Shown here: positions 44,423 to 63,032 of the stretch, piece by piece | How the letters are laid out: the number at the start of each line of letters is the position of its first letter | How positions within the stretch are numbered: the first letter of the stretch is position 1 | From: Halomonas ventosae | Lineage (GTDB): Bacteria; Pseudomonadota; Gammaproteobacteria; Pseudomonadales; Halomonadaceae | DNA length: 64,000 nucleotides | Assembly (NCBI RefSeq): GCF_004361885.1 | Contig: NZ_SNWH01000006.1 | Coordinates: forward strand, 124,001-188,000 | Direction of reading: 5' to 3' | Notes under the pieces: generated by a model | The model's input: only the letters and a program-made list of their open reading frames with translations | What the model was told of the DNA's origin: nothing | Database searches by the model: none | Translations under genes and position numbers: made by a program

Positions 44423-45253
44423 ATGCCCCTGACCCGAGTGATCGACTATTTCAATACCCATCTTGATGCTTTCAACCCACAAGCCAGCCTGCGCCGGCAT
44501 GCTCGATTCCGCTATGAGAACAATCAGGTGTCGGCCGATGTGGCGGGCAAGCACGTACGGCCACGCCAGCAGCCCATTCTGACGCTTGCCGGGCTCACGC
44601 CGGTGGCCCATGAGAGCCGCATTCAACTCATTGACCCGCACGGCGTTCGTGAGACGACGGACCCGCTCTATTTCTTCTCCTGGGATCGCGAGGATGTGAT
44701 TTTCCTCGACCGCTTGCTGCGCGTGCTGCATGCGCTGCACCATCTCTCACGCCATGGCGTCGATGCCGCGCCGCTGGTGGTCGACGTTCACTGGCGCCAT
44801 CTCCAGGCCGTGGAGGCCTCCCACGGAGCGGTCTTCGAGGCGCTGCTGGCGCGTCTTGGCTTGCACCCCCGGCAGGCGGTGCTGCGCCTGAGTGCCCTGC
44901 GCCTGCTCAGCGACGCTCATGCCCGGGAGGCCGCCGAGAGTTTCCAGCGTCACGGCTATCCGCTGCTGGCTCAGGGTGTCCCGGTGGATGCACCACCGAC
45001 CGCCTGGCGCCTGCTGAGTGAATCAGGGGTAAGGTGGGTGACGCCGGAACCCCACGCTCTGCGCCTGGCACGCCAGGGGCGCGAGCACTGGCCTCGGCTC
45101 ACTCAGTGGAACCGCGAGGCGCATGCCGCCGGTATGACCGTCTGGTGGCCGGGCCTCGACACGCCAGGAGATCTTGGTATCGTCACACAGCTCGAGCCGA
45201 CGCTGGTCAGCGGTGACCTACTGAGTCAAATGCAACCCTATCAATGGGAATGA
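44423..45253 (+). CDS. degenerate EAL-like protein, probably non-catalytic
   Basis: 276 residues. The C-terminal 165 residues follow the EAL (cyclic-di-GMP phosphodiesterase) fold pattern: a VDVHWRHLQA strand-helix in place of NLSxxxL, LARLGLHPRQAVLRLSALRLL in place of the GLxPxxLxLEITES strand, and AHAAGMTVWWPGLDTPGDL in place of the AxxLGxxVVAEGVET segment. The catalytic EAL, E-T-E and DDFGTG residues are absent, so it cannot hydrolyse c-di-GMP by the known mechanism. It may bind a ligand or a partner. It lies downstream of the first sulfonate-type ABC operon, same strand. The fold call is by pattern only. Confidence 0.55.
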   Translation: MPLTRVIDYFNTHLDAFNPQASLRRHARFRYENNQVSADVAGKHVRPRQQPILTLAGLTPVAHESRIQLIDPHGVRETTDPLYFFSWDREDVIFLDRLLRVLHALHHLSRHGVDAAPLVVDVHWRHLQAVEASHGAVFEALLARLGLHPRQAVLRLSALRLLSDAHAREAAESFQRHGYPLLAQGVPVDAPPTAWRLLSESGVRWVTPEPHALRLARQGREHWPRLTQWNREAHAAGMTVWWPGLDTPGDLGIVTQLEPTLVSGDLLSQMQPYQWE

Positions 45254-45774
45254 AGCGGAGTCAGGCCAGGCGCCGCAGGCCAAAGCACCTGCAGTGCCAA
45301 TTCGTTGAAGTAGCGAGTAGATTCCACAATGCCGATAACCGGACAATGTGTTGAGGTGGCGACGTTAATGTCAAGATGCACAGCTGCTGAATGTTCATGC
45401 AGAACACCCCAAAACAGAAATGCTTATGGGAATATAATGTATGCCTCTATTACTTAAAAGCATTAGTGGCGACATCCACATCATCTCCCGACGAAGTCGA
45501 CGAGGGACACCTTAAATTTGAATTCACCACTGTAATGTCACCGTTTCTTGCTTATGACCAGTATCTCACTGGTCGGCCTGATCAGCACTTAGTGCCCAGC
45601 CCGAATTACAGGGGCCACTCCAAAACCTGAATTCCTGGAGTTAAATTCCCAGGAGTTAGTTGTGGGGAATTAGCGGTTCCTCGATTACTGATAATCATAT
45701 GAAATATTCTTGTTTAATCGACCGGCGCGAGGCTCCTATTATCGTGGAATCATCCCGTCGTTATCGAGTACGCC
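45254..45774. other. non-coding relic region, lower GC
   Basis: 521 bp without a supportable gene. A 79-codon frame (45391-45630) has no recognisable content. TCCTGG (45633-45638) and CCAGGA (45649-45654) form a small dyad with an adjacent AGTTA direct repeat. The base composition is distinctly more AT-rich than the flanking operons, suggesting foreign or decaying DNA. Confidence 0.5.
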
Positions 45775-46231
45775 ATGTACCAGGCTTTCGGTTTAAAAAG
45801 CGCATTTCTTGTGGCACCTCAAAATCCATTCTGTGGGTTCCTGTGCCGTGGTGGTACCAGTGATCACAAGGATGGCTGGGGAATCGCCTATTACGCCGAT
45901 GGTGACCATCAGCTTAATGTCGAGAAAACCAGCGCCTTCAATTGTCGCAATGCTCGTTCCTTTCTTGACCGTGACATTGTCACTCGCAATCTGATACTGG
46001 CCCCGGCAAGCCGGTGAGCCAATGAAGGCTCGGCTTGTGGATTGCAATCAGTGGCTCGACGACACGGTCTATACCGGTACTCCCTTGGTGATGGTGGCAA
46101 CCCAGCCGATTACCGAAGGTCATGAATGGCAGCGATTCGAAAAAAACGAACTGGCTGTTTTTGTAGGCGGATCTCGATATCGCGATGAGTCAGACATTTC
46201 GCTGATGGATGGATTTGATCTAATTCAATAA
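45775..46231 (+). pseudogene. dead copy of a class II glutamine amidotransferase gene, internally deleted
   Basis: The first part (45775-46017) matches residues 1-75 of the intact protein at 63033-63899: GFLCRGG, DHKDGWGIAYYADG, KTSAFNCR, FLDRDIVTRNLI. The second part (46022-46231) matches residues 202-267: ARLVDCNQWLDDTVYTG, MVATQPITEGHEW, NELAVFVGGSRY. About 125 residues between them are missing and the two parts are in different frames. The N-terminal catalytic Cys2 is Tyr (MYQAFGL instead of MCQIFGL). It cannot be functional. Confidence 0.9.
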
Positions 46232-46740
46232 ATGTCGTGGTTGAACCGTGGATGTCTGCCGAGCGAGATGTCCTTCTTGCCGCGTGCTGAGTAGATTATA
46301 TTCGCCATCAGCCATGGTCACTGAGCAATTTTTCCCGACAATTCCTTGGGCTTGACCATGCGATGTCAAAACAAAGCTTGAGCACTAGCCCCCGCACGCA
46401 CTCTCAAAATTCTCATTTATTTTCAACCGATTGACATCTTTCAAGCCGGCACCGACGTCATCATTAGGACATGGAAGGGCCCGGGGATGATCATCGCCGC
46501 CGCAAAGTGTCTGTGCTTACTGCTTTAGCCAATGCCAATGTGGTATGGCGCTTGCATTATAATGGATTATCCGTCGCCGGTATCGGCTAAATGTGCTGTG
46601 GCTGTTCATTGAATAAAGGATGGTAGTGCGGAATTTTTAATATGGTTAGCGGAGATAACCATTTAGTCTGATAAGTGATGAGCGATAGGATAAAGGTCTC
46701 ATCAAGCGCAAAGGTATTGTTTGCTCAAGAGGCCATCACT
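46232..46740 (+). promoter_or_regulatory. upstream region of the second ABC operon with promoter and operator candidates
   Basis: 509 bp without a gene. A perfect -10 hexamer TATAAT is at 46558-46563, with no convincing -35. A dyad ATGGTTA/TAACCAT (46642-46648, 46656-46662) lies about 80 bp before the permease start. The region is AT-rich. A sulfur-responsive LysR regulator (CysB/Cbl type) would be expected but none is encoded in the window. Confidence 0.4.
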
Positions 46741-47601
46741 ATGAAAAAAGTAACCACCTATGACGTCACAACAAGAGGCGTCACCAAGGCGCTAAATGGC
46801 AACAATGCACGCCTTCGTCAGCTGGGGCAGGCGCTGACCCGCGCCGGTAATGTTTGCCTGGGTCGGTATGGGGCGCTGGTCGCCTTCTTTGGCCTGTGGC
46901 AACTGGCGAGTTCGCTGGACTGGCTCAACGTCGCGGTGATACCGCCTCTCGATAGGATCGTGGTGGCGCTCTACAACGCGGTCTTGCATGGCACCTTGAT
47001 GGACGATATAGGCATTAGCCTGCAGCGCTCTGGCATCGCCTTTGGCGCCTCGGTGCTGATTGCCATTCCGCTGGGGCTGGTCATGGGCAGTTTTCGTGCC
47101 ATCGAGCAGAGCCTCGACCCGATCCTGCAGCTCTTTCGCCAGACCTCGGCACTGGCCGTCTACCCGGTCTTCATCCTGCTGATGGGGCTCGGCGAGGCCT
47201 CCAAGATTTTCGTCATCTTCTGGGCCTCGGTCTTTCCGCTCTTGATGAACACTATCACCGGCGTGCAGCAGGCCGATTCCAAGCTGATCGAGATGGTGCG
47301 TGTATTTGGTGCTTCCCGCTTCGAGGTGTTTCGCCGCGTCGTGGTGCCCAGCGCCATTCCTTCCATCTTCGTTGGCCTGCGCCTGAGCGCGACGTCGACG
47401 CTGCTGCTGCTGGTTGCCGCCGAGATGATTGGGGCCAACCGAGGCATCGGCTTCCAGGTGATGAACGCTCAATACAACTTTCAGATCCCGCTGATGTTTG
47501 CCGCCATTTTTCTGCTGGCCGGGCTTGGCCTGCTGGCCAACTACTTGCTGGTAGCGCTCCAGAAACGTCTCTGCCGCTGGGAGAATGATGGCAGCACCTG
47601 A
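46741..47601 (+). CDS. sulfonate-type ABC transporter permease (second system)
   Basis: 286 residues from ATG 46741 (agagg upstream; an earlier in-frame ATG at 46675 has no RBS). About six helices with SsuC-like EAA loop (ADSKLIEMVRVFGASRFEVFRRVVVPSAIPSIFVGLRL). The neighbours are its binding protein, ATPase, a TauD-like dioxygenase and SsuE, all on the same strand. The order permease-receptor-ATPase differs from the first system, so the two are not a simple tandem duplication. Confidence 0.92.
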   Translation: MKKVTTYDVTTRGVTKALNGNNARLRQLGQALTRAGNVCLGRYGALVAFFGLWQLASSLDWLNVAVIPPLDRIVVALYNAVLHGTLMDDIGISLQRSGIAFGASVLIAIPLGLVMGSFRAIEQSLDPILQLFRQTSALAVYPVFILLMGLGEASKIFVIFWASVFPLLMNTITGVQQADSKLIEMVRVFGASRFEVFRRVVVPSAIPSIFVGLRLSATSTLLLLVAAEMIGANRGIGFQVMNAQYNFQIPLMFAAIFLLAGLGLLANYLLVALQKRLCRWENDGST

Positions 47602-47651
47602 TTCGAATGTTTCGCCAATCAACGACTTCAATGACGAAGAGGAACTTATTG

Positions 47652-48695
47652 ATGAAAAAACGAACCATCAAGAAACGCGCATTGGTTACAACTACGCTGC
47701 TGTTGCTGGCAGGACAGGCCGTGGCGACCAGTCAGGCGCTGGCCGCGGACGAAGCGGCCAGCGAGCCGGTAACCATCCGCTATCTCAGTAGCCGTGGTCA
47801 GATTTCGATACCAGAAATAGCGCAAGCGAAGGGTTGGCTCGAGGAGAAAGGCGTGACGCTCGAGTCCGAGGGATTCAGCCAGGGCGGGCCGGAGAGTCTG
47901 TTCGCCATGGCGTCTGGGTCGATCGACATTGCCGGTGCGGCTACCTCTGCGACAATTAACGCCATCGCCAATGGAGCGGATAACGTCGGCATCATGGCTT
48001 CCAGCGGTGTCAACGAGGAGGTCAATAGCCGCTTCTATGTGCTTGAGAATAGCCCCATCAAACAGCCCTCAGACCTGATCGGCAAGACTATCGCGGTCAA
48101 TACTCTGGGCGCGCATCTGGATTATGTGGTGCGCGAGTATCTGCGGCAAAACGACATTCCCTATAACGCGGTGCGCCTGGTGACGGTGCCGGGTCCGCAG
48201 CTCGGGCAGACCCTGCGCTCCGGCCAGGTCGATGTCGCTGCCGTCGGCGCTTGGCAAACCGTGTTTGCCGGTCAACTCGAAGAGGGAGGTGGGGTACGCT
48301 CGCTGTTCAGCGACTACGAGTTATTGGGTGATATCACGCTGAGCCCTTACTCCATGGAACGCGACTTCGTCGAGCAGCACCCCGAGGCGGTGCGAGCGCT
48401 GGTGACCCAGTCCGGGCGTGCTGCCAACTGGGTGCGCGACAACCCGGAGAAGGCGCGATCACTGATCGCCGAGCTGCTGGCCAAGCGTAACGAAAATGCT
48501 CAGCTGGCGGAGCACTGGGCCGGCTTTGGTGTGCGCGACAGTGCTCAGCTCAGCGAGCACGATGTGCAGTACTGGCTGGATGTGCTCGAGCGGGAAGGGA
48601 CACTGACCGCAGGGCAACTGTCGGTCGGTGATGTGGTGACCAATGCCTACAACGACGCCGCCAGCATCGAGTTGGGCGGGGGAGTCGAACAATGA
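47652..48695 (+). CDS. sulfonate-type ABC transporter substrate-binding protein (second system)
   Basis: 347 residues from ATG 47652 (RBS aagagg). Signal peptide KKRTIKKRALVTTTLLLLAG with cleavage near ALA/A. SsuA/NMT1-like lobes: IAQAKGWLEEKGVTLESEGFSQGGPESLFAMASGSIDIAGAATSATINAI and IGKTIAVNTLGAHLDYVVREYL. The ligand is inferred as an alkanesulfonate or sulfate ester from the neighbours. Its stop overlaps the ATPase start (ATGA). Confidence 0.9.
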   Translation: MKKRTIKKRALVTTTLLLLAGQAVATSQALAADEAASEPVTIRYLSSRGQISIPEIAQAKGWLEEKGVTLESEGFSQGGPESLFAMASGSIDIAGAATSATINAIANGADNVGIMASSGVNEEVNSRFYVLENSPIKQPSDLIGKTIAVNTLGAHLDYVVREYLRQNDIPYNAVRLVTVPGPQLGQTLRSGQVDVAAVGAWQTVFAGQLEEGGGVRSLFSDYELLGDITLSPYSMERDFVEQHPEAVRALVTQSGRAANWVRDNPEKARSLIAELLAKRNENAQLAEHWAGFGVRDSAQLSEHDVQYWLDVLEREGTLTAGQLSVGDVVTNAYNDAASIELGGGVEQ

Positions 48696-49489
48696 CGGCC
48701 ATAGCCAAGGGCTTGAGCGTGGGCCACATCAGCAAGTCGTTCACGCTCAAAGATAGCCACCTGGAGGTACTCAGCAACATCGATCTGGAGATTGCTGCCG
48801 GTGAGTTCGTGGCCATCATCGGCGCCAGCGGCTCGGGCAAGACCACGCTCTTGAGGATTCTGGCGGGTCTCGAACAGGCGGACAGCGGCACGATTCATCT
48901 GAATGGCCAGTCGATTCAGGGAGTCGGGTCAGAGCGCGCCATGGTCTTCCAGGAACCTCGCCTGTTGCCCTGGCTCACGGTGGAGGCCAATGTCGCCCTG
49001 GGGCTTGAGCTGATTGGCGAAAATAGCACTCAAGCGCTGGAGAAGGCGCGTCACTATCTCGATATCGTCGGCTTGACGGCGTTCTACAACGCCTACCCCC
49101 GCCAGCTCTCCGGCGGCATGGCCCAGCGAGTGGGGATCGCTCGGGGGCTGGCCATCTCCCCGGAAATTCTGTTGCTCGACGAGCCGCTGGGTGCGTTGGA
49201 TGCGATGAAGAAGATTCGCATGCAGCAGGAACTCGAGCGCATCTGGCGCGAGCAGGCTATCACCATGGTGATGGTGACGCACGACATTGAGGAGGCGGTC
49301 TACCTGGCGGATCGCATCGTCATTCTCTCCAGCGACCAAACAGCCACGCTTCAGGTCATGAACATAGACCTCCCGCGGCCACGCCAGCGCAGCGACAGCC
49401 AGTTCGTCGCCTACCGCGAGGCGCTGCTCAAGACCTTTCACCTCAACGATACTCGACATACGACTACCGCAACGGAGAGTACGCCATGA
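48692..49489 (+). CDS. sulfonate-type ABC transporter ATP-binding protein (second system)
   Basis: 265 residues. Walker A GASGSGKTT, signature LSGGMAQRVGIARGLAISP, Walker B ILLLDEPLGALDAMKKI, H-loop THDIEEAVYLA. SsuB/TauB group. Overlaps the receptor gene and the downstream dioxygenase gene by 4 bp each (ATGA), showing tight translational coupling across the operon. Confidence 0.94.
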   Translation: MTAIAKGLSVGHISKSFTLKDSHLEVLSNIDLEIAAGEFVAIIGASGSGKTTLLRILAGLEQADSGTIHLNGQSIQGVGSERAMVFQEPRLLPWLTVEANVALGLELIGENSTQALEKARHYLDIVGLTAFYNAYPRQLSGGMAQRVGIARGLAISPEILLLDEPLGALDAMKKIRMQQELERIWREQAITMVMVTHDIEEAVYLADRIVILSSDQTATLQVMNIDLPRPRQRSDSQFVAYREALLKTFHLNDTRHTTTATESTP

Positions 49490-50412
49490 GTCAGACTGCC
49501 ACCGCTGACGTCTCAGCCTCGATAGATGCATCAACACCCGCGGGTGCCTTGTCCGCTGCGCGCCATGACCAGCCGCTGACCATCACGCCCACGGACGGCG
49601 CGCTCGGCGCCGTGGTGATGGGCATCGACCTGACACAGCCGTTATCACCGACTCACTATCTGCAACTCAAGCAGGCGTGGCTCGAGCACCATATCCTAAT
49701 CTTCAAGGGGCAGCGCTTGACCGACGAGCAACTGCTCGACTTCACGACCTACTTCGGCGACGTCTTCCATCCACCCGGCCATATTCCGGTGCTGGCCACA
49801 AACGAGCAGGGCTTAACCCCGGACATCGTCAAGGTCTCCAACGTCAAGGGCGGTTACACCGGCAATGGTGAACTCTCCGCCCACGTGGATCACCAATGGA
49901 CACCACGCCCCTCCAAAGCCTCGGCGCTCTATGCCCGCCAGATTCCCTCGACCGGCGGTGACACTTATTGGTACAACCTCAATCTCGCCTGGGAAACGCT
50001 CGATTCACACATCCGTCAGTCAATCGCCGGGCTTTCGCTGATCACCTACAACCCCTTTCTCAACCGCGATTCGTCCCGCCCCGGCTATCGTGTGCCGGAC
50101 AATCCGCCCAAGGGCGAGGCGCACCCTCACCCGCTGGTCACCACCCACCCGGAGTCGGGCAACAAGCAGCTGTTTTTGGGTGAGGCGACCGAAGTCGAGA
50201 TTCCCGAGCTGGACTATGCGTCGGGCAAGGCGCTGATCGAGAAGTTGCGCGCTCACCTCTACATCCCGACCCATCGCTACGAGCACCGTTGGGAAGTGGG
50301 CGACGTGGTGCTGTGGGACAACCGCGCCACCGCCCACTACCGCTCCGCTTTCGACGAACGGGAAATTCGTGACATGCGGCGGGTTAGCCTGGCGGGCGGG
50401 CGTCCCTTGTAG
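49486..50412 (+). CDS. TauD/TfdA-family Fe(II)/2-oxoglutarate dioxygenase (second copy)
   Basis: 308 residues. Iron ligands His133 and Asp135 in SAHVDHQWTP and the distal His in LWDNRATAHYRSAFD; the C-terminal Arg is in MRRVSLAGGRP. It lies inside the operon of the second ABC system, so its substrate is probably the sulfonate or alkyl sulfate imported by that system. It shares the fold but little sequence with the first copy at 40246. An AtsK-like alkylsulfatase role is possible. Confidence 0.9.
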   Translation: MSQTATADVSASIDASTPAGALSAARHDQPLTITPTDGALGAVVMGIDLTQPLSPTHYLQLKQAWLEHHILIFKGQRLTDEQLLDFTTYFGDVFHPPGHIPVLATNEQGLTPDIVKVSNVKGGYTGNGELSAHVDHQWTPRPSKASALYARQIPSTGGDTYWYNLNLAWETLDSHIRQSIAGLSLITYNPFLNRDSSRPGYRVPDNPPKGEAHPHPLVTTHPESGNKQLFLGEATEVEIPELDYASGKALIEKLRAHLYIPTHRYEHRWEVGDVVLWDNRATAHYRSAFDEREIRDMRRVSLAGGRPL

Positions 50413-50572
50413 GGTCACAAGCCTTTTCCTGACGATGAGGCAAGCAGCGATGTCACAAATACTGCGCAGTGTTCAACATTCGCAAGGCTGCGTTGCTGCT
50501 GGCTCATGTCGCTGTGTCACGACTTTTCCCGGAAGTGGCCATACTTTCAACTCACAACTCATGGAGGCAATA

Positions 50573-51145
50573 ATGAGTGTTGTGCTGATTGCCGGTAGCC
50601 CCGGAAGTGTGTCGCGGACCTCCGCGCTCATCACATTCATCGATGGGCTGCTGCAGGCCCGGGGCATCAAGACCGAGGTTTTCAACGTCAATGATTTTGA
50701 CGGCAATGCGGTGTTCTTCGCCGATGTATCGGCACCACAGATCGTGCGTTACCGTGAGGCGATTGCCAAGGCGGACGCGGTGATCTTGGCAACCCCCGTT
50801 TATCAGGCCTCATTTTCGGGAGCTATCAAGCTGTTGCTCGACCTGGTACCCGAGCGGGGCTTGAAAGGGAAGCTGGTGCTGCCCCTGGCCAATGGCGGGT
50901 CGGATAACCATCTGCTGGTCATCGATTACGCCTTGAAGCCGGTCTTGTCGGCGCTGGGGGCCAGCAACGTGCTCGGTGGCGTCTACGTCAACGCCAAGCA
51001 ATTGACCCTCGAAGAGGGCCAGGCGTACCGGGTCGGTGGCGATGCGAGGGCCAGGATCCAGCGCGCTCTCGATGAGCTGCTGGAAGCCCTGCCGCTGGTG
51101 ATCGGGGCCAATGAGCGGAACCATTCCGGGGTCGCCTACGCTTGA
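50573..51145 (+). CDS. ssuE: NADPH-dependent FMN reductase (SsuE-like)
   Basis: 190 residues from ATG 50573 with RBS ggagg at 50563; the longer frame overlaps the dioxygenase and was rejected. Flavodoxin-like fold with LIAGSPGSVSRTSAL phosphate loop and ATPVYQASFSGAIKLLLDLV, the SsuE signature. It supplies reduced FMN to the SsuD monooxygenase, whose gene lies 4 kb away on the opposite strand beyond two insertion elements. Confidence 0.92.
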   Translation: MSVVLIAGSPGSVSRTSALITFIDGLLQARGIKTEVFNVNDFDGNAVFFADVSAPQIVRYREAIAKADAVILATPVYQASFSGAIKLLLDLVPERGLKGKLVLPLANGGSDNHLLVIDYALKPVLSALGASNVLGGVYVNAKQLTLEEGQAYRVGGDARARIQRALDELLEALPLVIGANERNHSGVAYA

Positions 51146-51180
51146 TCCTTTTTCCTTCATGCAAGGCCCTTGAAAAAACA

Positions 51181-51202
51181 CCCCGACAACAGAGAGTCGG
51201 GG
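51181..51202. terminator. hairpin after ssuE
   Basis: A 7-bp stem (51181-51187 with 51196-51202) and 8-nt loop, 36 bp after the ssuE stop. There is no T-tract downstream; AAAAAA precedes it, so it would suit minus-strand termination better. Confidence 0.35.
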
Positions 51203-51232
51203 GGCTTCCCAACGTTGCCTAAGGTGTTCGCG

Positions 51233-51331
51233 ATGAAGTCCGATACCTATCTAGCCCATCCCATCGAGCCCCAGCGTGTCTGGGCCTGTATGTTGCCTCT
51301 GGATGGCTCCTTTTTCTGGCTGCTGTGCTGA
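51233..51331 (+). CDS. possible 32-residue leader peptide before the arylsulfatase gene
   Basis: An ATG at 51233 opens 32 codons ending WLLC-stop, in the 267-bp gap before the arylsulfatase gene. No strong RBS is visible and I recognise no homologue. The two cysteines and the position before a sulfur-scavenging gene prompted the note, but a chance frame is quite possible. Confidence 0.2.
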   Translation: MKSDTYLAHPIEPQRVWACMLPLDGSFFWLLC

Positions 51332-53033
<1,702 letters not shown>

Positions 53034-53059: not shown

Positions 53060-54086
53060 CCTGATTACGCATAAGGCTCAGCCATCTTCAGGAACCGGTA
53101 TGGCATCGGCGGTGTTCGGGCGGCTACCGTGAGAAAGCGCGGGATCATGGCCTTGAGGTCATAGCGCCGATTGAAGCGATACTCGAACTCGGCCAGGTAG
53201 CGCGGGGCATGCTGCCCGCGGATGGCATGGTAGGTACCGGTGATCGCGTTTTTGACGTTACCGAGCAGCGTGTTGACCCAGTTGAATTCGGGGTTCGCCA
53301 CGCTGGCACGCCCACCGCCGGTGATATGGCGCACATGAACGTAGGAAGTCGTTTCGAAGGCTCGAAAGCATCCGAGGCCGTCGCTGATCACCTGACTACC
53401 CGGTGCAATGGCCTGTTGAGCATAACGACGCATCTCGGACAGGGTAAAGCCGTTCACACGGCGCAGCTGAACACGCTGCGGATGGCCGTCTTCATCGGTT
53501 TGCACGGCGGCGACAAAGGGGAACTTATGCTCAGCGCCGCGCCCGCGCTTTCCCGGCCGCTCACCGCCCAGGTAGGCGTCATCGATCTCGATACGCCCGG
53601 AGAGCCTTTCTCCCTGGTTGCGCTCGTGCATGACCTGCAGCAGCTTGTGCTTGAGCTTCCAGGCGGTGTTGTAGGCAACGCCAAGTTCACGGGACAGTTG
53701 CAGCGCTGAGATGCCGCTCTTGCGCTGGGTCAGCAGATAAATGGCGAGAAACCAGGTGGTCAGCGGCAGATGCGTTGCATGGAAAATGGTACCGGCAGTC
53801 AGCGAGGTCTGATGATGGCAGCGATGGCACTGGTAGAGCCCCCGCGACAGCTGGCAACCGGTGGTGTTGCCGCAGTCGGGGCAAACGAACCCCTTGGGCC
53901 AACGATTCCGATAGAGCGCCGCCCGACACTGCGCTTCTGTGCCGTACTGCTCGAGGAAGGCCGGCAGCGACAGGCCGGGCTGAAACTGGATCGGGTTGCG
54001 TGCCATGACGTCACCTCCTCTACTGGATATAACCTCAGTATAGGACAAGCTGGCGGAATGGTGGCTGATCAACATGAGTAATCAGG
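53060..54086 (-). mobile_element. complete IS1595-family insertion sequence, 1027 bp
   Basis: Bounded by imperfect 24-bp inverted repeats (53060-53083 and 54063-54086; 19 of 24 matching, outer part CCTGATTAC identical) and by perfect 8-bp direct repeats TGGGAAAA (53052-53059, 54087-54094). 8-bp duplications are the norm for the IS1595 family. It encodes one intact transposase. Intact gene, ends and duplication indicate a recent insertion, between the arylsulfatase gene and an older IS3-type relic. Confidence 0.92.
53065..54006 (-). CDS. IS1595-family (ISXO2-like) transposase
   Basis: 313 residues from ATG 54006 (MARNPIQFQPGLSLPAFLEQYG). A zinc-ribbon domain carries CPDCG (Cys42, Cys45) and CHRC (Cys60, Cys63); an ISXO2-like DDE domain follows with IEIDDAYLGGERPGKRGRG, ISDGLGCFRAF and NWVNTLLGNVKNAITGTYHAI. 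No stop or shift interrupts it, so it may be active. The frame extends upstream into the terminal repeat, but that part lacks an RBS. Confidence 0.94.
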   Translation of the reverse strand: MARNPIQFQPGLSLPAFLEQYGTEAQCRAALYRNRWPKGFVCPDCGNTTGCQLSRGLYQCHRCHHQTSLTAGTIFHATHLPLTTWFLAIYLLTQRKSGISALQLSRELGVAYNTAWKLKHKLLQVMHERNQGERLSGRIEIDDAYLGGERPGKRGRGAEHKFPFVAAVQTDEDGHPQRVQLRRVNGFTLSEMRRYAQQAIAPGSQVISDGLGCFRAFETTSYVHVRHITGGGRASVANPEFNWVNTLLGNVKNAITGTYHAIRGQHAPRYLAEFEYRFNRRYDLKAMIPRFLTVAARTPPMPYRFLKMAEPYA

Positions 54087-54094
54087 TGGGAAAA
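54087..54094. repeat. target-site duplication, right copy
   Basis: TGGGAAAA, matching 53052-53059, immediately outside the right inverted repeat. Confidence 0.85.
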
Positions 54095-54128: not shown

Positions 54129-55133
54129 AATATTCTGGCCAGATCAGATCGGACACATTGTCAAACCGCAGCTGCCAATTCAATCCCTCGGCGTCTGGTA
54201 GCCCAGGGTTGATTGGAGCCGGCAGCTGTTGTACTACATCTCGATGTAGTCGACCACGTGCCGCCTGTCGGCTCGCATACCGCTGGCCCGCCAGCCACTG
54301 GCTTTTCAGTGAGCCGAAGAAGCGCTCCATGACGGCGTTGTCCCAGCAGTTTCCCCTTACGACTCATCAAAGCTTGGAAGCCATGCCGGGCCATCGTGTC
54401 GCAGCTCTCATGCGACGCGTGTTGGCAGCCGCGATCGCTGTGATGGATCAGCCCTCTGTCGGCCTGCCAGCGACCTACGGCCATGTCCAAGGCGTCCAGG
54501 ACCAACTGCGTGCGCATTTGATCGGCCATCGCCGAGCCCACCAACTGCCGATCGTGGAGGCCAAGCACCGTCGCCAGATAGAGCCACCCTTCCAGCGTCC
54601 AGATCGCCGCGATATCGGCCACCCAGGTCCGATTCGGTGCCGCCACCATGAGCTGGCGGTTCAGCAGGTTGGGCGCCACCAGACTGTGCTAACTGTCGGT
54701 CGTATGGCGCCAGCGGCGCCGCTGACGTGCCTCGACACCGGCTTCCCGCATTAGGCTGCGGGCCTGGTACTGGCCGACGTCGTAGCCTCGGCGTCGCAGT
54801 TCTCAGGCCATGCAGCGGCTGCCATAGCTGCCACGTTTCTGGCGATGAATCTCTCTGACTTCGTGGAGCAGGACCTAACGCTGGTCATCAGGGCCACGTC
54901 GTCGCCAGGCATAGAAACCACTCCGGCTGACCTGCATGACTCGACACAACACGGCCACAGGATAGGTGGCCTTCTCCGACTCGATGAACTGATATCTCGG
55001 TTCGACTCTTTGGTGAAGAAGACCGCCTTGAATTCATCGGATAACCGACGTCGAGTCTTCTTGGTCATGAACACCTCCACTACCTCCATCATGAAGCTTA
55101 TCAGTGTGTCCGCTCCAATTGGACCACTTCACA
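54129..55133 (-). mobile_element. decayed IS3-family element
   Basis: OrfA starts MTKKTRRRLSDEFK near 55068 but soon loses its frame. OrfB fragments in several frames show the IS3 DDE core: TWVADIAAIWTLEGWLYLATVLGLHDRQ, GLIHHSDRGCQHAS, and MERFFGSLKSQWL. At least three frameshifts separate them. Terminal repeats are likely at 54129-54156 and 55106-55133, sharing the inner GGACAC and about 16 of 28 positions. The right end touches the ssuD stop codon. No target duplication could be identified. Confidence 0.8.
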
Positions 55134-56309
55134 TTAGCGCGGCTTGGTGCTATTGGCCACGACCTCGCCTCGCTGCTCCGTTCGAGCTTTGTCGATAATG
55201 GGCGGGGTGTGATCCTTGGGCAGCAGCGGCAGCACTTTCTCCCCGAAGTGGTAGGCCTCCTCCAGATGGGGGTAGCCGGATAGAATGAAGGTGTCAATGC
55301 CGATTGCCATGTACTCAAGGATACGCTGCGCCACTGTCTCGGGGCTGCCGACCAGGGCTGTGCCGGCACCGCCGCGCACTAGACCCACCCCGGCCCAGAG
55401 GTTGGGGCTGATCTCGAGCTGGTCGCGGCGGCCGCCGTGCAGGGCGGCCATGCGCCGCTGGCCTTCGGAGTCCATACGCGACATCGTGGATTGGGCCGCG
55501 GCAATGGTCTCGTCATCGAGATGCTCGATGAGTTTCTCCGCCGCTGCCCACGCCTCGGTATCGGTATCGCGCACGATGACATGCAGGCGGATGCCGAAGG
55601 TCAGCGTTCGATTCGCCTGGTCGGCGGCTTTCTTGACGGTGGCGAGCTTTTCCGCCACCTGGGCGGGCGGCTCGCCCCAGGTGAGGTATTTGTCCACCGT
55701 CTCGGCGGCGACGTCGATGCCCGCCGCGGACGAGCCGCCAAAATAGAGCGGCGGATGCGGTGTTTGGGCGGGCAGGTATATCAACTCGCTCTCCTCCACG
55801 CGCAGGTGGTTACCGGCGTAGCTCACTTGCTTGCCTGCCAGCAGGTCTCGGTAAATGGCGAGGAATTCGCGGGTCACCTCATAGCGCTGGTCGTGGGGTA
55901 GGAAAACGCCATCACCGCGGTTCTCGACCGGGTCGCCGCCGGTGACCACATTGATCAGCAAGCGACCGTTGGAAATGCGATCCAGGGTAGTGGTCATCCG
56001 GGCCGCCGCGGTGGGTGATTGCAGTCCCGGACGCACGGCCACCAGAAAGCGCAGCCGCTCGGTGACGGGCACCAGCGCCGAGGCAATGATCCAAGCATCC
56101 TCGCAACTGCGGCCCGTCGGTAGCAGTACTCCAAAGAAGCCGAGTTGATCCGCCGCCTGGGCTACCTGGCGCAGGTAGCCCAGGTTGACCTCGCGACTTC
56201 CCTGTGTGGTACCCAAATGGTGGCCATCGCCGTGGGTGGGCAAGAACCAGAGGAACTTGCCGGCGTTAGCGGGCGTAGCGGTCGAGTCGGTGGGCGACGA
56301 GTCTGTCAT
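55134..56309 (-). CDS. ssuD: FMNH2-dependent alkanesulfonate monooxygenase
   Basis: 391 residues, bacterial luciferase-like TIM barrel. [54 protein letters not shown] and [15 protein letters not shown] are SsuD signatures. It releases sulfite from C-SO3 compounds using FMNH2 from SsuE. The last codons abut an IS3-type end, so the exact C-terminus (VANSTKPR) may have been altered by the insertion; the catalytic core is intact. The gene is on the minus strand, opposite to ssuE. Confidence 0.94.
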
Positions 56310-56772: not shown

Positions 56773-57744
56773 ATGAAACAGCTTACCCGTATCGGGGCAT
56801 TGGCCGGTATCGCCGCAGCTCTGGCAACCACGACAGTTCAGGCGGAAGAAGCCACCGTCCGCGTCTCTGGCGGATGGGCGGTGTACCCCCTGATGGTGGT
56901 CTGGGCAGACAAGTACGCCGATGTACGCGACGACGTCGAAATCAAGGTTGCAGGCGGCGGCACTGGCAAGGGTGTATCCGATGTGCTCAATGGTCAGGTC
57001 GATATCGGCATGATGGGCCGGGACCCGCACGAAAAAGAAATCGAACAGGGCCTGTTTCCAACAGCTGTAGCCAAGGATTCCGTCGTCGGCACCATCCACA
57101 AAGACAACCCGGTATTCGATGAAATTCAGGCACAAGGCCTCTCGGAAGGAGATTTTGAGGCGATCTTCACTAAAAAGATCACCCACTGGGGTGAGGTTGT
57201 TGGGAAAGATCTCGATAACGACAAAATTGTCGTTTATGGCCGCTCCGACGCCTCCGGCGCTGCAAAAACCTGGTACAAGTTTTTCAGCAAGGCGTCCCAG
57301 GGAGAATTTCAGAACATAGCCGATGCCAATTTCAATGGCGATCAGCCCCTGGCGGCGGCTGTGGGTAAGGAGCCCAATGCCATCGGCTTCAACAATCTGA
57401 ACTACGCCTACAACATTGAAACGGGTGACTTCGCGGGCAACGTCCGTCCGATACCGCTGGATCTGAACGACAACAATGTCGTTGACCCGGAAGAGTCGTT
57501 CTATCAGGACCGCCGGACTTTTCTTGATGCGGTTGCCGAAGGTCGCTACCCGTCACCTCCGGCCCGGCAGGTCTATCTGGCGGGCAAGGGGCCGTACACG
57601 GGCGAAGTCAAAAAGTTTGTTCTCTGGACGCTGACCGAGGGGCAGAAATATGTCGGTGAGAATGGTTATGTCCAGTTAACGAATAAAACGATTGACGCTC
57701 AACGCCGTTACGTTGAAGGCGACATTGAAGCGACCGACCGGTAA
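56773..57744 (+). CDS. PstS-like oxyanion ABC transporter substrate-binding protein
   Basis: 323 residues with a Sec signal (TRIGALAGIAAALATTTVQAEE). It belongs to the PstS/PBP-like fold: VRVSGGWAVYPLMVVWADKY, GGGTGKGVSDVLNGQVDIGMMGRDPH and FTKKITHWGEV. Phosphate receptors usually carry SGS/GAG at the first loop and SSGT at the later anion loop; here these read SGGWAVYP and GRSDASGAAK, so a different oxyanion is possible. It is the first gene of a four-gene ABC set followed by chrA. No phoU or phoBR is nearby. Confidence 0.82.
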   Translation: MKQLTRIGALAGIAAALATTTVQAEEATVRVSGGWAVYPLMVVWADKYADVRDDVEIKVAGGGTGKGVSDVLNGQVDIGMMGRDPHEKEIEQGLFPTAVAKDSVVGTIHKDNPVFDEIQAQGLSEGDFEAIFTKKITHWGEVVGKDLDNDKIVVYGRSDASGAAKTWYKFFSKASQGEFQNIADANFNGDQPLAAAVGKEPNAIGFNNLNYAYNIETGDFAGNVRPIPLDLNDNNVVDPEESFYQDRRTFLDAVAEGRYPSPPARQVYLAGKGPYTGEVKKFVLWTLTEGQKYVGENGYVQLTNKTIDAQRRYVEGDIEATDR

Positions 57745-57777
57745 CGCCGTGCCATCCCGCTTTCAACGAGGTACCCG

Positions 57778-58683
57778 ATGACAACATTAACCAGGCGCGT
57801 CATCATCGACAACAGTGCCAAGGCAGCGATCCAGGTTATTACCTGGGCCGCGATAGCGCTCTTTGTGGCCATTCTGTTGACTCTGGCAGGGAAATCCCTG
57901 CCAGTGCTGGGGGAGCATTCGCTGGCCGATCTCCTTTTCAGCGGTACCTGGGACCCGGAGGCGGGCTCTTTCGGGTTTCTTCCGGCAATCGTTGGAACCC
58001 TGCTGGTGATGCTGGTGTCCATGACCCTGGCCGTTCCGGTGGCGATTCTGGCGTCTCTCTATATCGCCGAATACGCCAGGGGCAAGGTTCAAACCTGGCT
58101 TTCGGCGGCGGTAGACATGCTGGCGGCGATCCCGTCAGTGATTTTCGGCCTGTTTGGTTTGTTGCTCGTGGTGCCTTTTGTGGACGATTTCCTGGCCCCC
58201 CTGTTGGGCGCCGAGACCACAGGCCTGGGCATCATGACCGCTGGCCTGGTGGTTGCGACGATGACCTTGCCCATCATTATTTCCATGTCGGTGGAGTCAC
58301 TGAGGGCCCTGCCCGACAGCCTGCGGGAGTCAGCATTGTCTCTGGGTGAAACCCGAAGCGGTGTCGCCACGAACATTCTGTTGCGCGCTGCCGGGCCCGG
58401 TATCATTTCGGCGGTACTGCTCGGTCTGGGGCGGGCTTTTGAGGCGTCCATTGCAGTTGCCATGGTCATCGGCGGCAAGAACGTGATTCCCAGCTCCCTG
58501 TTCGATGCCGGCCAGACCTTACCGAGCCTGATCGTTAATACCTTTGGGGAACTGATGTCGCTGCCTATTACCCAGTCGGCGTTGATCTTCGCTGCGCTGG
58601 TGCTGTTCCTTGTGGTCACTTTCTTCAACATTATGGCCACCCTGGTGCGTGGCCATTTCGAGAAGCACTGGAAGTACCAATGA
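57778..58683 (+). CDS. PstC-like ABC transporter permease
   Basis: 301 residues, about six helices. FGFLPAIVGTLLVMLVSMTLAVPVAILASLYIAEYA and AAIPSVIFGLFGLLLVVPFV match PstC/PstA permeases, as does SLRESALSLGETRSGVATNILLRAAGPGIISAVLLGLGRAFE. The segment that reads GRAxGETMAV in phosphate PstC is GRAFEASIAVAMV here, a divergence from phosphate transporters. The stop overlaps the next permease start (58680-58683). Confidence 0.85.
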   Translation: MTTLTRRVIIDNSAKAAIQVITWAAIALFVAILLTLAGKSLPVLGEHSLADLLFSGTWDPEAGSFGFLPAIVGTLLVMLVSMTLAVPVAILASLYIAEYARGKVQTWLSAAVDMLAAIPSVIFGLFGLLLVVPFVDDFLAPLLGAETTGLGIMTAGLVVATMTLPIIISMSVESLRALPDSLRESALSLGETRSGVATNILLRAAGPGIISAVLLGLGRAFEASIAVAMVIGGKNVIPSSLFDAGQTLPSLIVNTFGELMSLPITQSALIFAALVLFLVVTFFNIMATLVRGHFEKHWKYQ

Positions 58684-59531
58684 ACCGGTATACCAAACAA
58701 ACCCTGGTCGAGTCTCTGATCCGCCTGAGCATGGCGCTGGTGGTGGGCGTGCTGGCGCTGATTATCGGCATGACCCTGTACAAGGGCGGCCTGGTTCTGT
58801 GGAACCAGCCCGAGGTCGTGATCACGGCGCCCGGGCCAATGTACCTGCTCGGGGGCAGCGGTGGTTTTCTGCACGCCATTCTCGGCAGTTTTGCCATCGT
58901 CCTGCCGGCGACGCTGATCGCCACCCTGCTGGCTCTGGCCGTCGCCATGTATCTTCAAACCGACTACTGCAGTGAGCGCTTTGCCCGGGCCGTCAATCTT
59001 CTGCTGTATGTGCTGTGGGGTACGCCGGCCATCGTGTACGGCGTATTCGTGCTGACACTGCTGATTGTCATGGAGGCCCGTGCCAGTCTGCTGGCCGCCC
59101 TGGTGGCGGTGACGCTGCTCCAGTTCCCTATCATTGCCCGCTTCATGGATGAGGCTCTGCGCTCGGTGGCGGCCAACCTCAAGGAATCCGGTTACTCGCT
59201 GGGCCTGACCCGACTGGAAACCATGAAGATCACGCTCAAAGCTGCACTGCCCGGGCTCACCGCCGGGGTGATTATGGGGTTCGCCCGCGGGTTGGGCGAC
59301 GGTGCGGCGGTGCTATTCACGGCGGGCGGCGGGATTAACATGCCCAATGAGCTGGACGACTCCGCGACCACCTTGCCCATACTGATTTTCCAGCAGGCGT
59401 CCTCACCCTACCCAAGTGTGCGGGATGACGCCTTTGCGGCGGCCTTTGTGCTGATGATGCTCGTGCTAGGGCTCATCGTGGTGTCAAAGCTGATCGCAAA
59501 CCATTTTTCACGTTACACACAGGATCACTGA
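58680..59531 (+). CDS. PstA-like ABC transporter permease
   Basis: 283 residues, six predicted helices. GGSGGFLHAILGSFAIVLPATLIATLLALAVAMYL and LRSVAANLKESGYSLGLTRLETMKITLKAALPGLTAGVIMGFARGLGDGAAVLFTAGG are PstA-like, with the usual GRALGETAP replaced by ARGLGDGAA. It is coupled to the first permease gene by a 4-bp overlap and to the ATPase gene by a 2-bp gap. Confidence 0.85.
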   Translation: MNRYTKQTLVESLIRLSMALVVGVLALIIGMTLYKGGLVLWNQPEVVITAPGPMYLLGGSGGFLHAILGSFAIVLPATLIATLLALAVAMYLQTDYCSERFARAVNLLLYVLWGTPAIVYGVFVLTLLIVMEARASLLAALVAVTLLQFPIIARFMDEALRSVAANLKESGYSLGLTRLETMKITLKAALPGLTAGVIMGFARGLGDGAAVLFTAGGGINMPNELDDSATTLPILIFQQASSPYPSVRDDAFAAAFVLMMLVLGLIVVSKLIANHFSRYTQDH

Positions 59532-59533
59532 CC

Positions 59534-60331
59534 ATGTCTGATAACGCTGCCATACGCACTGAAAACCTGAACCTGTTTTACACTGGCGGGCATGCAAGTC
59601 AGGCACTGAAAGACATCAATATCGCATTTCCGGCAAACCGCCTGACGACGATTATCGGCCCTTCCGGCTGCGGTAAGTCATCGCTGCTGAAGTCGCTGAA
59701 CCGTCTGCATGATATCCACCAGAATACCCGGATCGAAGGTGAGGTTTATCTGGGCGGTGAACCCGTTTACCAGAGCCGCCGCCCTGTGCCGGATATTCGT
59801 AGCCGCATCGGTTATGTTTCCCAGAAACCCACGGCGCTGCCCATGTCTATCTACCGGAATGTGGCCTACGGGCCTCGCATTCACCGGTCCCTGGGCAAGG
59901 CTGAACTGGACGATCTGGTGGAAACATACCTGCGCAAGGTGAACCTCTGGAACGAGGTCAAGGATCGCCTGCACAGCCCGGCGGCACAACTATCGGTAGG
60001 CCAGATTCAGCGCCTGAGCCTGGCCCGGTCACTTGCTGTTGAGCCGGAGGTTCTCTTGTGCGACGAAGTGACCTCGGCGCTGGATCCGATCTCCGCCCAG
60101 AAGGTGGAAGAGACACTGCTCCAGCTGAAGGAAGATTACACCATCATCATGGTGACCCACCTGATGCACCAGGTTGAGCGGTTGGCGGACCATGTGGTGT
60201 TTGTCTATCTGGGGGAAGTCGTTGAAGCCGGCGAAGCGCGAACACTGCTTAATCATCCCGGCAAGGAAGCAACCCGCCGATTTGTGTCCGGGCATGCCAT
60301 GCCCGATGTTGCCCTGCGGGCAACCGCCTGA
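59534..60331 (+). CDS. PstB-like ABC transporter ATP-binding protein
   Basis: 265 residues. Walker A IGPSGCGKSS (41-50), Q-loop region GYVSQKPTALPMSIYRNVAYGPRIH, Walker B PEVLLCDEVTSALDP and H-loop VTHLMHQVERLAD. The fold and the SALDPISAQKVEE segment are PstB-like. The ABC signature is LSVGQIQRLSLARSL rather than LSGGQQQRLCIARA, and PstB normally has DEPTSALDP where this has DEVTSALDP. These differences fit the divergence in the other three subunits. Confidence 0.87.
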   Translation: MSDNAAIRTENLNLFYTGGHASQALKDINIAFPANRLTTIIGPSGCGKSSLLKSLNRLHDIHQNTRIEGEVYLGGEPVYQSRRPVPDIRSRIGYVSQKPTALPMSIYRNVAYGPRIHRSLGKAELDDLVETYLRKVNLWNEVKDRLHSPAAQLSVGQIQRLSLARSLAVEPEVLLCDEVTSALDPISAQKVEETLLQLKEDYTIIMVTHLMHQVERLADHVVFVYLGEVVEAGEARTLLNHPGKEATRRFVSGHAMPDVALRATA

Positions 60332-60345
60332 CCGAGAATCGCCTG

Positions 60346-61767
60346 ATGACATCTTCCTCGCCAGAGGATGCTTCCCGTAGCTCGCCCCTGGCGACCTCAG
60401 GACAAGCCCAGAACGCCTTTGGCCATAACATCACCTTTGCCGAGGCCGTGCGTGTTTGGTTGCGGGTTGCAATGTTGAGCTTCGGTGGCCCGGCGGGCCA
60501 GATTGCCGTAATGCATCGGATTCTGGTGGATGAGAAACAATGGGTCAGCGAGAGCCGGTTTCTGCACGCGCTCAACTATTGCATGGTGCTACCCGGGCCG
60601 GAAGCGCAGCAACTGGCCACCTATCTGGGTTGGTTACTGCACGGTGTGAAAGGCGGGCTGGTGGCCGGCACCCTGTTCGTGCTGCCCGGCTTTGTGGCGA
60701 TTCTGGGCCTGAGCCTGCTGTACGCTGGCTTTCAGGAAGCTTCTCTGGTTCAGGCACTGTTCTTCGGCATCAAGGCAGCGGTGCTGGCGGTGGTCATCCA
60801 GGCGGTGGTTCGCATCGCCCAGCGGGCACTGAAAAACCGGGTCATGGTCACTCTGGCGGCGCTGGCCTTCGTTGCCATCTTCTTTTTTGCCGTGCCCTTC
60901 CCCCTTGTCATTGCAACGGCCGCACTGGTGGGATTGATTGGCCGCCACCTGGACCCGAAGCGATTTGTGGTGATCAAAGGCCATACCACGCCGGCAGAGG
61001 GCGAGCGCGCCATTGATGCAATGATGGCGAACGGCACTGGCCATCACACCGAGGCAAGCCGCGGGCGCACACTGAAAGTGCTCGGGATTTGGCTGCCCCT
61101 ATGGTTTGTGCCTCTGATAGCGCTGGCCCTCTCGCTGGGCATGGACAATGTATTCACCCAGATCGGTCTGTTCTTCAGCAAGCTGGCCGTGGTGACCTTC
61201 GGGGGTGCCTATTCAGTGTTGGCCTATATGGCGCAAGAGGCGGTCCAGAATCATGGCTGGTTGGCCCCTGGTGAAATGCTCGATGGTCTGGGTATGGCGG
61301 AATCCACACCCGGGCCACTGATTCAGGTGGTGCAGTTTGTCGGGTTTATGGGCGCCTTCCGGGATTCCGGTGGACTGGACCCGTTTACCGCCGGCGTTCT
61401 GGCTTCGATATTGGCCACCTGGGTCACCTTCATACCCTGTTTCCTCTGGATTTTTCTCGGTGCGCCTTACGTGGAGAAACTGCGGGGCAACCAGGCCGTC
61501 AGCGCCGCGCTGTCAGCCGTTACCGCAGCTGTGGTCGGGGTCATGCTGAACCTGGCCATCTGGTTTGCGGTGCACGTAGCTTTTGCTGAGGTGCAGACGT
61601 CGAAAGCCTGGGGCATTCAATGGCTAGCCCCGCAATGGGACAGTGTCCAGCTCGCCAGCGTGGTTCTGGCGCTGGGCGCGTTCGTCGCCATTCTTCGGTT
61701 CAAAATCGGCATGCTGCCGGTGCTATTCACCAGCGCCCTGCTGGGTATGCTGTGGCATTGGTTATAA
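60346..61767 (+). CDS. chrA: chromate transporter ChrA, long (two-domain) form
   Basis: 473 residues with two CHR domains. The first is LRVAMLSFGGPAGQIAVMHRILVDEKQWVSESRFLHALNYCMVLPGPEAQQLATYLGW; the second is FFSKLAVVTFGGAYSVLAYMAQEAV with GLGMAESTPGPLIQVVQFVGFMGAFR. A soluble linker (about 195-250) separates them. ChrA exports chromate, a sulfate analogue, using the proton gradient. The start lies 14 bp after the PstB-like gene, so it belongs to that ABC operon. This association, and the divergent PstSCAB motifs, suggests the operon handles an oxyanion such as sulfate or chromate. Confidence 0.92.
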   Translation: MTSSSPEDASRSSPLATSGQAQNAFGHNITFAEAVRVWLRVAMLSFGGPAGQIAVMHRILVDEKQWVSESRFLHALNYCMVLPGPEAQQLATYLGWLLHGVKGGLVAGTLFVLPGFVAILGLSLLYAGFQEASLVQALFFGIKAAVLAVVIQAVVRIAQRALKNRVMVTLAALAFVAIFFFAVPFPLVIATAALVGLIGRHLDPKRFVVIKGHTTPAEGERAIDAMMANGTGHHTEASRGRTLKVLGIWLPLWFVPLIALALSLGMDNVFTQIGLFFSKLAVVTFGGAYSVLAYMAQEAVQNHGWLAPGEMLDGLGMAESTPGPLIQVVQFVGFMGAFRDSGGLDPFTAGVLASILATWVTFIPCFLWIFLGAPYVEKLRGNQAVSAALSAVTAAVVGVMLNLAIWFAVHVAFAEVQTSKAWGIQWLAPQWDSVQLASVVLALGAFVAILRFKIGMLPVLFTSALLGMLWHWL

Positions 61768-61804
61768 AGGTGGCGCTCCGGGTTCTGATGACCGGCCGGA
61801 AACA

Positions 61805-61826
61805 GCTCAGGGCGTACCCCCTGAGC
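61805..61826. terminator. hairpin after chrA
   Basis: An 8-bp stem GCTCAGGG/CCCTGAGC (61805-61812, 61819-61826) with 6-nt loop, 38 bp past the chrA stop, without a T-tract. The 234-bp gap to the convergent epsC-like gene otherwise holds no supportable gene. Confidence 0.4.
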
Positions 61827-62001
61827 ACTGTCTCGCTTAAGAATAGGACGTCGGTGTGGGTACTTTCTATAGTGGACTCCGAAATTCCTACCAGGCACCA
61901 AGGGAGATCGAAGAATCGCGGAAGCAGCTTAATAAAAGAGTCCGATACGACTTGGCCAGAACATCGCGACTTCATGTAGAACAGCCACTCCGGGGTTTCG
62001 C

Positions 62002-62961
62002 TCAGGTTAGTGGCTGATCCTTGTTTTGCTGGACAGAGGCCTGGGACACCCGGCTTTCCGTCGGTACACTGCGAGTAAGCCAGACATTACCGCCAATCAC
62101 CGATCTCCGGCCGATGGTAATGCGGCCCAGTATCGTGGCGCCCGCGTAGATCACCACGTCGTCTTCGACGATAGGATGGCGGGGCTCGCCTTTGGTCAAG
62201 ACGCCGGTCTCGTCTTCGTTGAACCGCACCGCACCGAGTGTCACATTCTGGTAAATGCGTACACGGTTACCCAGAATGGCGGTTTCGCCGACGACCACGC
62301 CGGTGCCGTGGTCTATGAAAAACGAGCGCCCGATGGTGGCACCGGGGTGAATATCGATACCGGTCGCCGAATGGGCTTTCTCGGCAATGATTCGCGCGAT
62401 CATCGGCAGGCCGGCCCGATAGAAACCATGGGCGATTCGGTGATGGATAATGGCCTGGACGCCGGGATAGGAAATCAGCACCTCGTCCACGCAGGTCGCC
62501 GCGGGGTCGCCATGGTAAGCGGCGAGCACGTCGTCATCCAGTTGCCGCCGCAGTGCCGGCAACTGTGCCAGCAGCTTGCTGACCTGACCGCTGGCCTGAT
62601 CCCTCAGGTCGACCAGTTGCTGCTGATCCCGGTCAAGATACTGGAGTTCCAGCGCCACCTGGCTGATAAGTTCCCGTTCCACGTTGCCCAGCATGTAGGC
62701 CACGAATTGATCTTCCCGCTCTTTCGTCAAATCCGAAGGGCCCAGGCGCATGGGAAACAGGATAGCGCAGAGGGCATCAACCGTTTGATGAACGGCCTGA
62801 TGTGATGGCAGCTCACGGCTGCCCAAATCCACTTCCCGGCCCTGGCGCTGCCGCCAGTCATGACGGGCCAGGCGCAATTCATATGTGATTTTATCGATAA
62901 GACGCTTACCGGATGGCAAAGACTCTCTCCTTAAATGGCGTGACTCTGGCTTAGCACCCAT
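62002..62961 (-). CDS. epsC: serine O-acetyltransferase, EpsC type
   Basis: 319 residues. A long N-terminal helical domain (1-175) precedes a left-handed beta-helix with hexapeptide repeats: IDIHPGATIGRSFFIDHGTGVVVGETAILGNRVRIYQNVTLGA, then DDVVIYAGATILGRITIGRRSVIGGN. The Asp/His pair for catalysis is in the DIHPGA and IDHGTG motifs. It makes O-acetylserine, the acceptor for sulfide and a signal for CysB-type regulation, and so fits the sulfur theme. The length matches EpsC rather than the 270-residue CysE. Confidence 0.92.
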   Translation of the reverse strand: MGAKPESRHLRRESLPSGKRLIDKITYELRLARHDWRQRQGREVDLGSRELPSHQAVHQTVDALCAILFPMRLGPSDLTKEREDQFVAYMLGNVERELISQVALELQYLDRDQQQLVDLRDQASGQVSKLLAQLPALRRQLDDDVLAAYHGDPAATCVDEVLISYPGVQAIIHHRIAHGFYRAGLPMIARIIAEKAHSATGIDIHPGATIGRSFFIDHGTGVVVGETAILGNRVRIYQNVTLGAVRFNEDETGVLTKGEPRHPIVEDDVVIYAGATILGRITIGRRSVIGGNVWLTRSVPTESRVSQASVQQNKDQPLT

Positions 62962-63032
62962 TTTTTACGCATAGGCTTCGTCAAAAAGTTCAAATTTTTG
63001 GTGTTTATGCCCAATAACTTCAAGCGCTCTCG

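Follow-up and report, generated by a model that had tools for sequence, protein, structure and literature searches.

A 64,000-nucleotide stretch of the Halomonas ventosae genome (hereafter the window; positions 124001–188000 of contig C6 in G000, an assembly of 3.24 Mb in 64 contigs) contains a damaged class II glutamine amidotransferase (GATase) gene and an intact paralogue, with sulfur genes between them, raising the question of how two copies came to lie in one place and why one of them has decayed. The relic spans window positions 45775–46225 on the plus strand, 16.8 kb from the intact copy and in the opposite orientation (Table 1). Aligned by blastn, positions 45601–46400 and the intact gene share two collinear blocks, one of 234 columns at 79% identity (E 2e-56) and one of 230 bp at 77% (E 2e-49), values that make a chance similarity untenable. 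Between the blocks, a frameshifting deletion of 346 bp, with a junction ambiguous by 1 nt, removes residues ~76–190 of the intact copy, including all of the motifs HVRKAT, HNGD, and GDTDSE; a single 3-bp in-frame deletion and the replacement of Cys2 by tyrosine are also observed. The remaining parts (74 and 77 codons) are free of stop codons. The region has ORFs of 80 and 69 aa, of which the latter, searched alone against Pfam, gives no GATase match and a weak match to DUF5949 below the cut-off. The GC content of the relic is 50%. In class II GATases the nucleophile is Cys2, which becomes N-terminal once the methionine is removed, and the other conserved motifs bind glutamine and hold the oxyanion; on these general motif roles the relic, lacking Cys2 and all three motifs, cannot be catalytic. 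Significant similarity to an intact gene is thus combined with lesions that abolish the product and, as judged from sequence, the dead copy is a pseudogene of an accessory class II GATase, ordinary in kind.

An earlier note on this DNA had proposed a dead GATase copy far from, and oriented opposite to, an intact paralogue, with a frameshift and a tyrosine in place of Cys2, all of which is borne out by the alignments. Its loss of residues ~76–201 holds as a large deletion but not in extent, the earlier count probably having been made from the ATG at 46022. Homology between the copies begins ~10 nt before the ATG (relic position 45765) and ends at residue 267 of the 288 residues of the intact protein, i.e. 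near the gene borders, and therefore no longer repeat flanks the segment.

Table 1. Positions of features in the window and of the shell gene beyond its right end
Feature	Position	Strand	Basis
Degenerate EAL-like gene, left host flank	44423..45253	+	PF00563 E 9e-5, below cut-off; 94% DNA identity in G123
Final stretch with a weak alignment to the empty site of G123	45322..45358	+	37 bp, 78%, E 7e-4
Relic similar to a LysR-type regulator gene of the host sulfate locus, around its start	45372..45483	.	77% to C23:31145-31258; 76% to G123; LysR by Pfam
Dead GATase, 5' part	45775..45996	+	74 codons, Tyr at position 2, one codon missing; blastn 79%; PF13230 E 4.6e-9
Dead GATase, 3' part	45995..46225	+	77 codons = intact residues 191-267, after the 346-bp frameshifting deletion; blastn 77%
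Foreign sulfur block: ABC permease, substrate-binding protein, ATPase, TauD-type dioxygenase, SsuE-type FMN reductase, sulfatase	46675..52882	+	No genus DNA match here among the matches listed
IS1595-type element	53060..54087	-	Transposase 53065-54075, NF033547 E 6e-60; many genus copies
IS3-type element, apparently broken	54133..55144	-	172-aa transposase fragment 54161-54679; NF033516 116 bits, below cut-off 160; many genus copies
SsuD alkanesulfonate monooxygenase	55134..56309	-	TIGR03565 613.6 bits, above cut-off
Phosphate-type (Pst-like) ABC transporter, four genes	56773..60331	+	PstC-like permease alone passes NCBIfam cut-off
Chromate/sulfate-type transporter ChrA	60346..61767	+	PF02417, TIGR00937
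Serine O-acetyltransferase (EpsC type, cysE)	62002..62961	-	NF041874 157.8 bits, cut-off 150; 71 bp downstream of intact GATase, same strand
Intact accessory class II GATase, 288 aa	63033..63899	-	PF13230 E 2e-64; 1TE5 E 2.9e-38; motifs MC, HVRKAT, HNGD, GDTDSE present
Type 2A encapsulin shell gene	L114:2845-3777, ~1.8 kb beyond the window's right end		PF19307 333.8 bits; in-frame TAG at codon 47

The intact protein passes the PF13230 (GATase_4) cut-off of 23 with 217.6 bits over residues 1–249, and in alignments it keeps Cys2 and the Arg, Asn-Gly, and Asp motifs, whose catalytic meaning is taken from general knowledge of the family. Its match to this family, which has 1TE5 as a close solved relative and is annotated yafJ in E. 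coli records, extends over the whole length; the relic represents a family fragment. A tblastn search of its own genome recovers the intact gene itself, the two relic pieces (74% and 69% amino acid identity), and, on contig C1, a single distant core copy at 36%. Compared with the core copies found across the genus, the window pair forms a separate accessory clade, ~32–38% identical to them; in G031 a partial match reaches 43% over 142 residues. The best NCBIfam match of the intact copy is EgtC (TIGR03442), an ergothioneine biosynthesis protein whose pathway is sulfur-related; membership was rejected at 51.3 bits versus a cut-off of 218.65.

The DNA-level alignment and dating that the earlier note had proposed place the split of the two copies well in the past. 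Over 151 aligned codons the copies differ at 23 first, 14 second, and 60 third positions, with dS 0.73 (0.51–1.06; near saturation over these 151 codons) and dN/dS 0.20 (95% 0.12–0.32) by the Nei-Gojobori method, and this preponderance of third-position changes and low dN/dS imply that they diverged mostly as working genes. The flank genes (EAL, ATPase, and cysA) show dS of 0.16–0.20 to G123, the nearest relative at the locus, and 0.53–0.87 to G036; the copies therefore split long before G000 and G123 did, and the distance between them is similar to that between two species of the genus. In a tree, relic and intact copy are sisters (support 100/98) within the accessory clade, the homologues from Kushneria and Salinicola falling outside the pair. 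The branch of the dead copy exceeds that of the intact one 3.5-fold in length (0.37 versus 0.11; rough lengths, as the tree program flagged long branches, the dead row included), although most of the divergence is older and was constrained, and with two outgroups 9 or 12 lineage-specific residues fall on the dead side versus 6 on the intact side. Both differences are as expected of a late loss of constraint, and thus one copy appears, from the sequences, to have died late. At 79% and 77% identity, neither relic part is closer to the intact gene than the other, which gives no indication that the copies have exchanged sequence.

In four relatives (G123, G097, G036, and G008) the EAL gene is directly followed by a CysA-type sulfate ABC operon, and in a fifth (G009, where CysA was assigned by Pfam) a GGDEF gene and a cysE gene lie between them, which suggests that the EAL–cysA site has been used repeatedly. 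The G009 insert is located at L120:5800–9400, and its cysE product is 68% identical in amino acids to that of the window. In the present genome the sulfate operon is on contig C23 (22850–36284, 93% to G123), while the EAL gene is on C6, followed by other DNA. Clear host homology stops at window positions 45213–45223, placing the dead copy ~0.4–0.55 kb inside the left edge of the island; the LysR-like relic sits between the host flank and the dead GATase. Contig C23 ends ~1.3 kb past cysA with an SsuE gene truncated by an insertion element, of which 95 bp remain on the contig, 96% identical to the element just beyond the window's right end; the end of C6 looks, by eye, like a piece of an insertion element. 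The left junction is thus seen on C6 and the contigs break before the right one; since the right junction is unassembled, insertion between the flanks is deduced from the relatives. At least 25 kb of foreign DNA follows the EAL gene, and would separate the C6 and C23 flanks if these still face each other.

DNA without a match in the site regions of the five relatives continues past 63899 for a further 6.8 kb, to the contig end. The earlier note had taken the two GATase copies as edges of a transferred or inverted segment: the dead copy does lie near the left edge, but with foreign DNA running beyond it the intact copy does not mark the right one. Transfer is supported, the segment being absent where the flanks adjoin in four relatives, and both GATases and the encapsulin shell described below being found in none of the 89 other genomes of the genus. 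Most of the island has a GC content of 55–63% versus 60–70% for the left flank. On this sequence evidence the island, which was not found in sequenced relatives of the genus, seems to have been acquired.

From left to right, the island comprises the dead GATase; an ABC transporter, TauD, SsuE, and a sulfatase; the IS1595 and IS3-type elements; SsuD; the Pst-like transporter; ChrA; CysE; and the intact GATase. The sulfur genes, of sulfonate/taurine type, occur as a block in no genome among the genus DNA matches listed (41.0–56.4 kb and 56.4–63.0 kb searched); the matches listed inside the island are the two transposons, scattered matches of 65–76% to single genes such as chrA and cysE, and pieces of ~70–130 bp of up to 90%. 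On plasmids, 542 records match the region 45254–52900, none covering 80% of the query; the 20 matches listed align at 68–71% to ABC transporter genes, and seven further records lie at 80–95%. The truncated SsuE gene of C23 (G000:C23:37058–37599; L131:11059–11600) encodes a product 68.8% identical in amino acids to the window SsuE (50369–51145), which may point to another redundant pair within the island. Within 60346–63899, cysE and the GATase gene are opposed to chrA; in G060 (L154) chrA and cysE run in the same direction. Among the literature titles listed, none names the island, and for Halomonas with encapsulin there is one broad review.

Past the window's right end (L114) follow a transposon relic (identified by eye; no Pfam match for the longest ORF in it), a rhodanese, an SrpI-like type 2A encapsulin shell, a cysteine desulfurase, and cysK. 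The rhodanese, desulfurase, and cysK genes are open, and PF00266 covers residues 255–623 of the 637 residues of the desulfurase, leaving a long N-terminal extension; the combination of an SrpI-like shell with such a desulfurase is that of a type 2A encapsulin locus. Shell function is in doubt owing to the in-frame TAG, which may be a sequencing error. The shell family is present in one of 90 genus genomes and seven of 369 sampled genomes of the class, the present genome being counted in both, and a search of E. coli genomes with the shell DNA, run in near mode, gave no match. The type 2A locus of the Synechococcus plasmid pANL (SrpI/cysteine desulfurase) has the same kinds of genes as the rhodanese, shell, desulfurase, cysK, cysE, and chrA found here. 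In contrast to pANL, cysE here is set apart and reversed, a transposon relic intervenes, the shell has an in-frame stop, and a GATase is present. The GATase as a regular part of type 2A loci was rejected, as none is nearby in nine other loci (six genomes, 4.7–19 kb each, and three plasmids, 20.7–24.7 kb); a cysE homologue is within the cluster in eight of the nine. At L165, one of the six genomic loci, the shell is only 51% identical and all partner genes are absent. According to a published study (PMC8346489), the accessory components most enriched in these encapsulin operons are serine O-acetyltransferases and rhodaneses, and Family 2 operon types are suggested to be often transferred horizontally, which fits the island.

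The distribution of the GATase clade was analyzed in 90 genus genomes (one per species, i.e. the present genome and 89 others) and in 275 genomes of the family. A DNA search of the 89 others finds neither copy; nine give only matches of 33–107 bp, which in at least seven of them fall at the distant core copy. By tblastn the clade is likewise absent from the 89 (best match 36%, E 1.7e-44), and a relative with both copies intact, which the earlier note had named as the finding that would speak against it, was thus not encountered among them. At an identity of at least 52% the clade occurs in four of the 275 family genomes (G000, G521, G577, and G589), all other family matches being at or below 38% among the matches listed. 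G577 and G589, both probably Salinicola, carry luciferase-type monooxygenase genes within ~4 kb of the GATase; in G589 the GATase is just 48 bp upstream of such a gene in the same direction, and in G577 SsuE and SsuD are also near. Sulfur genes hence neighbor the clade GATase in three of the four genomes (G000, G577, and G589), a weak association, as this proportion stands without a base rate for comparison. When the window's genes were searched for in nine named GATase loci, SsuE and SsuD were found in the Salinicola locus only, and none of the window's other genes was found in the Kushneria GATase locus. Plasmid homologues of the intact GATase (50 records) are all below 60% identity, the top match listed being at 42.9%; phage homologues amount to three records at 34–40%, and no stretch of the viral contigs fits the derived patterns. 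A linkage between GATase and EAL genes, considered for two Duganella loci searched singly, was dismissed, as on pooling 50 loci only one of the two passes 1e-5, at 27% identity, and is treated as chance. EAL genes are common, and the EAL-like gene before the dead copy gives no support to such a linkage because it belongs to the host flank.

These observations bear on how the two copies came together. We consider it probable that the island was stacked from two sulfur modules, each bringing a GATase, and that the redundant one decayed. At least two mobile modules of different origin would have built the sulfur island, each with its own GATase; with one GATase being enough, the superfluous one would have lost selection and decayed recently. 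This reading is favored by the redundancy of both GATase and SsuE, by the transposons that separate the blocks, and by how long ago the GATases split. To give each module an SsuE and a GATase of its own is speculative, and the truncated SsuE is located on C23 and not on the window's contig. The main rival, distinctly less probable though a serious contender, is an ancient duplication in a single donor, in which both copies long remained functional, the island moved once, and one copy then died. The sister relationship of the copies, which leaves the homologues from Kushneria and Salinicola outside the pair, accords with it, purifying selection through most of the divergence fits it equally well, and a duplication preceding a single transfer predicts the same divergence as do two modules. 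What tells against a donor duplication is that, of the three other family genomes bearing the clade, two have a single match, and the second match of G521 is weak (outside the matches listed); that transposons separate the blocks; and that SsuE forms a second redundant pair.

Two further explanations are much harder to reconcile with the data. A recent duplication or inversion in this genome, in which the copies would be inverted repeats bounding a flipped segment, would account for their opposite orientation, but is very improbable given their ~22% DNA divergence and a dS several times the distance to the nearest relative, homology that stops at the gene borders, and relic parts that are equally divergent; the segment is found in no relative in either orientation, and the inversion considered in the earlier note is left without evidence. 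Slightly less credible still is that the relic retains a function, whether as a short gene that still works, as a decoy in regulation, or as a split gene: its two parts are indeed stop-free, but it has lost Cys2 and a central stretch of 115 residues that holds the other conserved motifs, change is faster on its branch, and its GC content is low.

The pseudogene is of use as a marker, in that two long-separated accessory GATase copies met in one sulfur island; the relic itself is ordinary, and the surrounding island, with its protein-nanocompartment locus, is of some interest. That island seems to be decaying via transposons, deletion, and a stop in the shell gene. From its family and its neighbor genes we would guess that the intact copy cleaves γ-glutamyl amide bonds of a small sulfur compound, releasing sulfur or nitrogen for the cysteine pathway. 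A broader proposal, which we regard as doubtful, is that this rare accessory GATase clade travels with organosulfur-scavenging modules in the Halomonadaceae and acts as a γ-glutamyl hydrolase that would free cysteine or another thiol from γ-glutamyl compounds and so supply desulfurase systems, for example the type 2A encapsulin. If true, the hydrolase reading would give an uncharacterized GATase group a testable role. To the left of the island, a 353-aa ORF (42092–43153) has low GC3 and no family match, and the overlapping frame 42405–43238, which matches the ABC ATPases of relatives, is probably the real gene.
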